Shown one piece after another: positions 19,444-22,838 of a stretch of DNA of 49,361 bases; position 1 is the stretch's first letter; every line of letters begins with the position of its first letter. The stretch is from contig JAJZPZ010000007.1 in the NCBI GenBank assembly GCA_021847795.1, positions 1 through 49,361 on the forward strand, in the 5' to 3' direction. The notes under the pieces were generated by a model, which saw only the letters and a program-made list of their open reading frames with translations, was not told the origin of the DNA and ran no database searches. Both the position numbers and the translations under genes were made by a program. The stretch comes from Nitrospirota bacterium. Lineage in GTDB: Bacteria > Nitrospirota > Thermodesulfovibrionia > Thermodesulfovibrionales > Dissulfurispiraceae.

Positions 19444-21162
19444 TTAATTCGCCCTGGGGTTCCGTTTCTCCGGGAAATAGAGGGTGAAGGCGGCGCCTTT
19501 GCCGACCGTGCTCTCAACGGTTATAAAGCCGCCGTGGTCTTCCATGATCTTCCTGCTGATCGACAGCCCGAGTCCAATCCCCTTTTTGGACACCTTTGTG
19601 GTGAAGAAAGGCTCAAAGATCTTTTGCAGCCTGTCCGGCGGGATGCCTTCACCGGTGTCACTGACTTTTACCGTGACAAAAGAGTCTCCATTGGATTGTT
19701 CCTGCGCGACGCCGACCGTCAGTGTTCCGCCGGCCGGCATGGCAGCGAGCGCATTCGACACAAGGTTCATGATGACTTCTCCTGCGCGGTTCTTGTCGAT
19801 CATAATCTCCGGGACATCCGCGTATGCCTTGCGAACGGTTATCGAACGCTCACGGCACAGGTCCTCATAAATATTCAGGATATTATCGACAATTTCGTGA
19901 ATACGGTGCGCTTTCAACTGCAGGGCCGTTGTCCCGGCATAGGTGAGGACATCCCTGAGGATCTCTTCCAGCCTGCCCACCTCTGAAACAATGAAATCAG
20001 CGTACTCCCGCTCTCTTGTTTCCGTTGCCGCCCCTTTCTGCAGCCTTCGCGCAAAGCCGCCCACCACGGTCAGCGGGTTCCTGATTTCGTGCGCAACATT
20101 TGCCGAGATCCTGCCGAGCGCCGCAAGCTTTTCGGATTGCCCGAGCTGCTCGAGGAGCTTCTGCCGTTCGGCTTCGGCCTGGTAACGCTTGATGATGATG
20201 GCCAGGGTATTGGCAACAGCACGGAAAAACACCTCTTCCTGGGGCCTTGAGCCCGGCCACTCCCTGGCAAATATACTGATCAGTCCAAGTATTTTATTGC
20301 CCTCATGTATGGGGACGCAGTAATGGATAAAGGAAGAGCTGTGCCGGTAGAGGATTTCGTATGGCGCATCTGCACACCCTGTGTGCGTGAACTCACAGGT
20401 CAATACAGCCTGTGCAGCCTGCTTCAGGTCTCCTATGGCGGGAGGCTCCTCCTCTGAATACGTAAGTTCCCTGGGCCCTGGAAAGCCGCGCTGGGCTTTA
20501 AGGACATACTCCCCGGAGGCCTCGTCAAAAAGGTAAATGAAGCCCTTGGCCTCGAGTGCAGGGTCGGGAATGGAGATGATCAGCTCCAGGGTGCGATCAA
20601 GCTGCTCATCAAGGGTTATCTGCTCCAAGGCGATCTTGAGGATAGTGCTTATTACCCTCTGGATATTGTAGTTGAACTCTGTCTGCTCCTCTGCGCGGAC
20701 CCGCCCGGTGATGTCCCTTATCGCCGCGGTAACAAGCATTTCTCCGCCGATATCCAGAGGACTCAGGCTGACATCGGCCCTGAACTCGGTCCCGTCCTTT
20801 TTCAGGCCGTAGATCTTGAGCCCTGACCCCATCGGCCGGGTCCTCGGATTTGCGAAAAACCGGGCAATGTTCTCTTTATGTCTTGCATGGAACCGCCCGG
20901 GAATGAGCATATGCAGGTCCCTGCCGATCAGCTCCTCCCGCGAGTATCCGAAAAGCCTTTCCGTCTGTACGTTGACCAGGGCAATCCTGCCGCTCTTTTC
21001 TACGAAAACCATGGCATCAGGCGCAGCGTCGAGGAGTTTTTGATAGAGTTGATCGAATTCCCGGCCCGCGGCCCTGCGCGCCTCAAGCAATGCCGTGGCG
21101 CGGTGTTTCTCTATAATGCCTCTTGCAGCCTGCTCTCCGGGTATTTTTATTCCGCCTTCCAT
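19444..21162 (-). CDS. PAS-GAF sensor histidine kinase (orphan)
   Basis: 572 residues, no transmembrane segment, so a cytoplasmic sensor. A PAS domain at about 38-155 (LLDAAPDAMVFVEKSGRI, GYSREELIGRD) is followed by a GAF-like domain at about 175-325. HisKA follows with the phospho-acceptor His358 in ANVAHEIRNPL. The HATPase domain has N-box MNLVSNALAAM, G1 VSDTGEGIPPD, F-box EPFFTTK and G2 GIGLGLSISRKI. The ATG at 21162 is 8 nt from GGAG. No response regulator is adjacent, so its partner lies elsewhere. NtrB-like architecture suggests control of transcription by a sigma-54-type regulator, but that is a guess. Confidence 0.92.
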   Translation of the reverse strand: MEGGIKIPGEQAARGIIEKHRATALLEARRAAGREFDQLYQKLLDAAPDAMVFVEKSGRIALVNVQTERLFGYSREELIGRDLHMLIPGRFHARHKENIARFFANPRTRPMGSGLKIYGLKKDGTEFRADVSLSPLDIGGEMLVTAAIRDITGRVRAEEQTEFNYNIQRVISTILKIALEQITLDEQLDRTLELIISIPDPALEAKGFIYLFDEASGEYVLKAQRGFPGPRELTYSEEEPPAIGDLKQAAQAVLTCEFTHTGCADAPYEILYRHSSSFIHYCVPIHEGNKILGLISIFAREWPGSRPQEEVFFRAVANTLAIIIKRYQAEAERQKLLEQLGQSEKLAALGRISANVAHEIRNPLTVVGGFARRLQKGAATETREREYADFIVSEVGRLEEILRDVLTYAGTTALQLKAHRIHEIVDNILNIYEDLCRERSITVRKAYADVPEIMIDKNRAGEVIMNLVSNALAAMPAGGTLTVGVAQEQSNGDSFVTVKVSDTGEGIPPDRLQKIFEPFFTTKVSKKGIGLGLSISRKIMEDHGGFITVESTVGKGAAFTLYFPEKRNPRAN

Positions 21163-21380: not shown

Positions 21381-21521
21381 TAAGTTCACCCGACCTTATC
21401 ATGCAATTGCTGCATCTGTCCTCCCGTTGTGCTCCGGGCTGTTGCGTGATACTATAAAATTAAGGATTTCCTGAGGCAGTTCCCTATAAACGCTGGAACA
21501 GAGATCATCGGGAGCGCCTGC

Positions 21522-22235
21522 ATGGCGATAAAAACTCAAAAGCCCGAGAGGAAACCGGCAGGAATAAAACTACCTCCCCAAACGAAAAGGCCGAAGCTCG
21601 AAATCGTGCTCAAATGCGACTCCATGGGAAGCGCGGAGGCGGTTGCAGGCAGCCTCGATGCCATGGCCACGCCTGATGTCGATATACGTGTGATCCACAG
21701 CGGAGTCGGCGACATCAGCAAATCCGACGTGCTCTTTGCCGAAACAGCGGGCAGGCTCATTGTCGGGTTCCAGGTAGGCGTTATGCAGGGAATGGAGAAA
21801 GTGCTCAGGGAGCACAGGGTCGAGGTCCGCCTGTATGCCGTAATTTACAAGCTTATCGCTGATATCAAAGAGATTGCCGGGAACCTGGTCCCCCGCTCAC
21901 CGGAAGAGCGGATAATCGGCTCAGGCAAAGTAATAGCCCTTTTCAAAAGCAACCGGAAGGGGATCATTATCGGCTGCGAAGTTCAGGAAGGCGCTTTTAG
22001 TGTAGGCGAACGCTTCCGCATTATCTCTGCCGTCGGGCCGATCTATGCAGGCATTATTGAGTCGCTCCATATAGGTAACAGCGGGGTGAAAAAAGCGGTT
22101 CCGGGCCAGCAGGTCGGCATACGCATAAAGGATTTCAATAAGGCGAAGGTAGGGGATCTTGTAGAGAGTTTCCGGCCTCCTGCGCCGGGGAAAGTCCGCA
22201 CCTGGGAGCCTGCAGGACAGATTATCCGGATATAG
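21522..22235 (+). CDS. Stand-alone IF-2 C-terminal-like protein (domains III-IV, no GTPase)
   Basis: 237 residues. From about residue 25 the sequence follows the C-terminal half of bacterial translation initiation factor IF-2. Domain III has LEIVLKCDSMGSAEAVAGSL, VRVIHSGVGDISKSDVLFA-like and VRLYAVIYKLIADIK. A beta-barrel part has GSGKVIALFKSNRKGIIIGC, VGPIYAGIIESL and QVGIRIKDFNKAKVGDLVE. The GTP-binding domain and the long N-terminal region are absent. The first 25 residues are a basic, Pro-rich tail. In IF-2 these domains contact the ribosome and fMet-tRNA; this protein could be a ribosome-associated regulator or decoy. The ATG at 21522 follows GGGAGCGCCTGC. Confidence 0.8.
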   Translation: MAIKTQKPERKPAGIKLPPQTKRPKLEIVLKCDSMGSAEAVAGSLDAMATPDVDIRVIHSGVGDISKSDVLFAETAGRLIVGFQVGVMQGMEKVLREHRVEVRLYAVIYKLIADIKEIAGNLVPRSPEERIIGSGKVIALFKSNRKGIIIGCEVQEGAFSVGERFRIISAVGPIYAGIIESLHIGNSGVKKAVPGQQVGIRIKDFNKAKVGDLVESFRPPAPGKVRTWEPAGQIIRI

Positions 22236-22318: not shown

Positions 22319-22729
22319 TCAATCGCGCTTGTCGTCTTTTTCGCGATTTTGGGTCTTTCCTTCGCCGCTGTGTTTTTTTAGTTCTTTCCCGCAGTGAAAG
22401 CAGTGGCTTACCTGCAGTGTGGATACTTCTTTTCCTGTCCTCGTAAACACGAGCTTCTCAAAGTTCAGGGCCCTCATTACCCTGCAGCACCACTCTTCTT
22501 TTTTTATCTCTTGCCCGGCCTCTTCCTTTTCATACCCATCTTTTACGGGAGTGCCGCAGTGGCAGCAATAATTGACCCCGAATTTAATAGGCACGATATC
22601 GTCAAAGGCGAGCTTCAGATGCTCTTCAAGGGCGCCTTCCTTCAGGATATTACAGCACCATATGTCGGTTTTGCACTGCTTAAGCTCTTTCCACAACACT
22701 ACTGTTGACTTGTCCACTTTACGCCTCAT
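22319..22729 (-). CDS. Cys-rich putative zinc-binding protein
   Basis: About 136 residues from the Met at 22729, which follows AGGTAAATTATTT; an upstream in-frame ATG at 22780 lacks a ribosome site. Two similar halves each end in a zinc-knuckle-like CHCG: VNYCCHCGTPV and SHCFHCGKEL. They are preceded by paired Cys (WCCNILKEG and WCCRVM). This looks like an internal duplication of a metal-binding unit. The C-terminus is highly charged (KTQNREKDDKRD). Function unknown. Confidence 0.6.
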   Translation of the reverse strand: MRRKVDKSTVVLWKELKQCKTDIWCCNILKEGALEEHLKLAFDDIVPIKFGVNYCCHCGTPVKDGYEKEEAGQEIKKEEWCCRVMRALNFEKLVFTRTGKEVSTLQVSHCFHCGKELKKHSGEGKTQNREKDDKRD

Positions 22730-22838
22730 AAATAATTTACCTGCCCTGAAAAACCGGCCTTCCGGCCGGTCCGCACGCATTAGTATTCATACTATAACTC
22801 CGTACCCTTTATTCAACCGGAAATTGTGCAAAAAAAAA

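Follow-up and report, generated by a model that had tools for sequence, protein, structure and literature searches.

A conserved GTPase-less paralogue of the IF2 C-terminal domains in Nitrospirota and Desulfobacterota

Introduction

The C-terminal domains C1 and C2 of bacterial initiation factor IF2 (infB, TIGR00487) accompany N, G2 and G3 domains in a single protein. All fMet-tRNA determinants of IF2 reside in C2, and C1 shifts its position with respect to the G domain in the course of initiation (PMC4611024). Surveys have reported no duplicated IF2 in bacteria (PMC1780047, PMC4342817). Two further systems invite comparison with the protein described here. Archaeal Pbp11/PF0907 (NF041207), which NCBIfam names a tRNA-binding protein, is a free-standing barrel of about 90 amino acids that resembles EF-Tu domain II and has no GTPase. 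The HPF/YfiA ribosome hibernation factors are defined by the S30AE domain (PF02482).

Here we describe a stand-alone C1-C2 protein of 237 amino acids, encoded on the forward strand at 21522..22235 of a 49,361-nucleotide stretch (the window) of a 3.5 Mb Nitrospirota genome. It is an ancient paralogue of IF2, devoid of a GTPase, which has kept C1 and C2, has lost the fMet-tRNA residues and has acquired a conserved basic surface of its own. It shares the C1-C2 fold and domain order with IF2, at around 30-39% identity and with 34 alignment columns conserved in both, but lacks the N, G2 and G3 domains, carries an additional C-terminal motif, is encoded by a separate gene beside a full infB, and forms its own deep clade. 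Like Pbp11 it is a GTPase-free protein with an EF-Tu-domain-II-like barrel; unlike Pbp11 it has a C1 domain, and the sequence similarity between the two is marginal. Its likeness to HPF is confined to the proposed type of action: a Pfam search found no S30AE domain in the protein, and HPF genes are present separately in the same genomes. Our literature search, chiefly of open-access work, found no published description of such a protein, and as far as that search reached the paralogue represents an undescribed lineage.

Results

The open reading frame begins with ATG and is supported by Pfam and NCBIfam matches and by approximately 32 orthologues. Pfam IF-2 (PF11987, domain C1, also called III) covers residues 22-116 with an E-value of 8.7e-28, scoring 97 bits against a cut-off of 27. 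Profile positions 385-578 of the 587 in TIGR00487 align to residues 25-218 at 148 bits, far below the curated IF2 threshold of 424. Among solved structures the closest matches are chains of E. coli IF2 (E 2.7e-30, 34% identity over C1-C2), and a family profile matches solved IF2 chains at E 2e-44. The C1-like domain spans approximately residues 24-119 (21591..21878, + strand) and the C2-like beta-barrel approximately residues 129-219 (21906..22178, +), the latter assigned from both sequence and predicted fold. The barrel is followed by a C-terminal extension (22179..22232, +) with a W-x-P-x-G motif, WEPAGQIIRI in the window, which is absent from sampled infB; the tryptophan is present in 83% and the proline in 80% of 30 members.

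Residues 1-23 (21522..21590, +) form an N-terminal tail that is predicted to be disordered and differs among orthologues. The initial annotation described it as basic and proline-rich. The first part holds, since the window tail, MAIKTQKPERKPAGIKLPPQTKRPK, contains eight K/R and a single E; proline-richness is not a family trait, as the tails ahead of C1, which range from 6 to about 45 amino acids, are mostly K/R-rich and in some cases H-rich. H/K-rich tails are found in one Nitrospirota subgroup and several Desulfobacterota. The His/Lys-rich N-termini at loci L131, L134, L140 and L105-L110 (e.g. MGHKSRHHHEKH and MSGKHRHGKRHRHGESHGH) could possibly bind metal or nucleic acid.

An AlphaFold2 model of the protein has a mean pLDDT of 84 and a pTM of 0.53, so that C1 and C2 appear well folded, with uncertain relative placement; residues 1-20 score only about 40-50. 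Compared with IF2, a check that the early annotation had suggested, the predicted fold agrees in both domains. Predicted C1 overlays the ribosome-bound E. coli IF2 structure 9h9h at an rmsd of 1.6 Å over 104 residues (Z 16.6). The predicted barrel resembles IF2 C2; it also resembles EF-Tu/eEF1A domain II (Z ~13) and, at Z 12.6-12.7, a small barrel from Pyrococcus, PF0907 (1xe1 and 4pgo). Sequence matches to Pbp11 are weak, at E 0.0018 for a profile against a solved chain and at 15.5 bits (E 0.012) for NF041207, whose cut-off is 100. The alignment places C1, C2 and their connector in IF2 order in every member, so that a full C1 precedes the barrel throughout, at odds with the single-barrel architecture of Pbp11. 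A candidate EF-Tu-like A76 pocket was dropped, as C2 cannot be aligned with EF-Tu domain II in a sufficiently certain register.

While the predicted fold of the IF-2 C-terminal core is indeed kept, its fMet-tRNA residues are exchanged in nearly all members. We aligned 30 members with 58 infB sequences and compared C2 residues in E. coli numbering. R847, F848, K849, E860 and C861, which we take to be the tRNA-contacting positions of IF2 C2, are invariant in all 58 infB. R847 is retained in one of the 30 members, E860 in two and C861 in none. The family mostly has I in place of R847, E, G or D in place of F848, variable residues at K849, Q or K for E860, and V or A for C861. Gly862 is retained, and the corresponding G199 of the window protein is invariant across members; its equivalent in bsIF2 is Gly715 (PMC4236685). 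Fixed within the family instead are IALFKSxRKGIIIGCEV in C2, a second segment, GPVYSGxIESxH, and the C-terminal W-x-P-x-G. A divergent Desulfobacterota member (L143:7842-8540) lacks IALFKSxRKG, a natural deletion of an otherwise fixed segment.

No G domain was found in the protein by Pfam or NCBIfam, nor in its flanks. When the genome's own infB was compared with the window by tblastn, only infB residues 622-815 matched, at 21594-22172; the same search in all frames of the window and of all orthologous loci recovered C1-C2 alone, which argues that no G domain is concealed near the gene, whether behind a frameshift or otherwise. The genome's full-length infB, encoding 824 amino acids, lies on another contig (G000:C99:11057-13531), and every reasonably complete carrier that we checked also has a full-length infB. 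The initial proposal of a protein without a GTPase, encoded beside a true infB, is thus borne out. With the G domain absent and the fMet-tRNA residues lost, the protein is, as the initial annotation had supposed, not an initiation factor, and the replaced residues mean that a role as an fMet-tRNA carrier is probably excluded.

The orthologues, all of the same architecture, occur in Nitrospirota and Desulfobacterota. The short protein is present in 13 of the 176 genomes of the window's order, and a phylum-wide sample of 396 genomes added six carriers, all from one other family of the class. A search with a profile built from 18 members found it in 14 of 395 Thermodesulfobacteriota/Desulfobacterota genomes. 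Named carriers include NSJL01000021.1, JADFXI010000053.1, QZKC01000019.1, CP070632.1 and a Desulfobia MAG, and a long open frame in genome G743 harbours an ordinary member of 240 amino acids. None of 297 Acidobacteriota genomes matched at a strict threshold that had no Acidobacteriota positive control. The distribution is patchy: the only further species sampled from the window's genus has no copy. Such patchiness shows the protein to be dispensable.

A phylogeny built from 30 members and the C1-C2 regions of 38 infB sequences separates the family from infB by a branch supported at 100/100. A phylogeny had been suggested at the outset to learn whether the family is widespread; the protein belongs to a conserved family and is no fragment. 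Clustering within Nitrospirota mostly follows taxonomic family, a pattern that points to largely vertical inheritance and frequent loss, and the Desulfobacterota sequences are placed around this group. Because the branch to infB is long, the tree places neither root nor donor. For pairs with unsaturated dS, dN is 0.11-0.25 and dS 0.7-1.9, giving a dN/dS of approximately 0.1-0.27 and thus clear purifying selection on the coding sequence. A viral or mobile origin was rejected: viral contigs hold no relative, and the phage and plasmid matches listed share 33-36% identity, the annotated ones being ordinary infB. Selenocysteine was likewise rejected, the TGA within two Desulfobacterota matches being a C-terminal stop.

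Within the window the gene stands alone between two oppositely oriented open reading frames, a divergent upstream PAS-GAF histidine kinase (19444-21162) and a 153-residue frame (22319-22780, − strand) with two zinc-ribbon-like C-x-x-C-G motifs and no Pfam match. Clustering of flanking genes across approximately 31 loci found no common neighbour beyond closely related genomes, and the flanking genes include no translation or stress gene as a conserved neighbour and no IF2 partner gene. An operon-based function was accordingly rejected. Recurrent DsrE (three loci), HSP20 (four) and AzlC (four) genes were also set aside as too few, mostly non-adjacent, or explained by synteny of relatives. In one locus an HSP20 gene (L139:5649-6077) immediately precedes the paralogue and shares its strand; three other loci have related HSP20 genes.

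A predicted extended -10 promoter, TTGTGC-N14-TGATACTAT, precedes the gene at 21427..21455 (+), and its sequence and spacing are conserved in other Nitrospirota. The pattern TTGNNN-N14-TGATANNAT is found with identical spacing ahead of the gene in 11 of 19 Nitrospirota loci. It has 15 matches in 292 kb of these loci, the 11 upstream of this gene and four elsewhere; no such element was seen upstream of Desulfobacterota members. TTG-N17-TGATANYAT is likewise found ahead of infB and of a DnaJ-like gene, of two small genes that are presumably DUF2934-like, and of others. A special regulon was therefore rejected in favour of an ordinary housekeeping-type extended -10 promoter, whose conservation supports a conserved, independently transcribed gene. 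The infB genes of two carriers have an identical TTGCATTAAAAAGTCTTTTATGATAACAT promoter-like element of the paralogue's type (G000:C99:13676-13704 and G007:C62:223035-223063), 128-144 bases ahead of the infB start. Separately, the window contains four copies of TCATTGCGAG (4939, 13097, 21323 and 44433, all +), where chance would give 0.15. It looks like a dispersed intergenic repeat, and one of the copies lies shortly ahead of the gene.

Discussion

The short protein is most likely a ribosome- or tRNA-directed regulator that uses part of the IF2 footprint. Selection has maintained C1 and C2 as a unit. We know of no setting besides that footprint on the ribosome in which the two are used together, and we place the protein there for this reason. 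It would bind the ribosomal cleft that accommodates IF2 C1-C2, or a tRNA acceptor end within it. Lacking both GTPase-driven release and the anchor on fMet-tRNA, it would be an occupant or competitor, not an initiation factor, and would restrain initiation or shield idle ribosomes. We put forward such an occupancy or competitor factor in translation control tentatively, as a possibility somewhat short of even. The consistent presence of C1, C2 and connector, a predicted fold matching ribosome-bound IF2, basic tails in most members, a single fully supported clade under purifying selection, and an infB alongside (with the same promoter type in two carriers) all argue for it; the missing anchor residues, the lack of a translation or stress neighbour and the patchy distribution argue against. 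With the grip on fMet-tRNA replaced, docking exactly like IF2 through the initiator tRNA is unlikely.

The same observations can be read in other ways. That the frame is simply a remnant of infB in decay, the product of an assembly break or part of an IF2 divided by a frameshift is hardly credible: its short length alone speaks for this, and the evidence contradicts it, with approximately 32 orthologues of identical boundaries, a dN/dS of around 0.2, a promoter of its own, no G domain nearby and an intact infB elsewhere. The resemblance of the barrel to EF-Tu/eEF1A domain II and PF0907, the weak Pbp11 matches and the invariant strand glycine would fit a protein whose C2 binds (aminoacyl-)tRNAs at their CCA ends, away from the ribosome, much as Pbp11 might. 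We consider this unlikely, however, as the residues that serve IF2 at the tRNA end have disappeared, C1 is missing in Pbp11 yet equally conserved here, the similarity to Pbp11 is marginal, and a common fold demonstrates no function.

Mimicry of IF2's own C-terminal half, together with the displacement of C1 against the G domain as initiation proceeds (PMC4611024), raises the prospect of a decoy that stays off the ribosome, engages IF2 or a C1-C2 partner and alters initiation in trans. No IF2-partner gene adjoins the locus. To our knowledge isolated C1-C2 has no stable partner besides tRNA and the ribosome, and we judge the decoy, too, to be an improbable account. More doubtful still is exaptation outside translation, for example as an RNA-binding regulator. 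The unlinked translation genes, the rewritten C2 surface and the long branch to infB are compatible with such a shift, but both domains remain recognisably IF2 and well packed, and no effector domain has been added.

One pointer to ribosome idling, a weak lead, comes from HPF. Possession of two or three HPF-domain genes is more frequent among carriers than among non-carriers. In an order-wide hand tally, a second PF02482 gene was commoner in carriers (approximately 10/13) than in non-carriers (34/162), with a Fisher p of 7e-5 that becomes 0.03 when stratified by taxonomic family and is confounded by phylogeny and genome size; the excess may simply reflect genome size. Nearly every genome of the order has HPF, so a hibernation role for the short protein would be additional at best.

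The most far-reaching form of our proposal, which we offer with more reserve than occupancy itself, is that the protein is dedicated to occupying the IF2 C1-C2 site without a GTPase, where it shuts initiation down or guards it. It would then constitute both the first bacterial lineage of IF2 paralogues and a new class of ribosome-associated protein, present in two phyla. Searches keyed to the G domain would have missed a conserved G-less paralogue of this kind. Should ribosome binding prove true, the family would provide a natural test of how IF2 C1-C2 acts without GTP and without fMet-tRNA.
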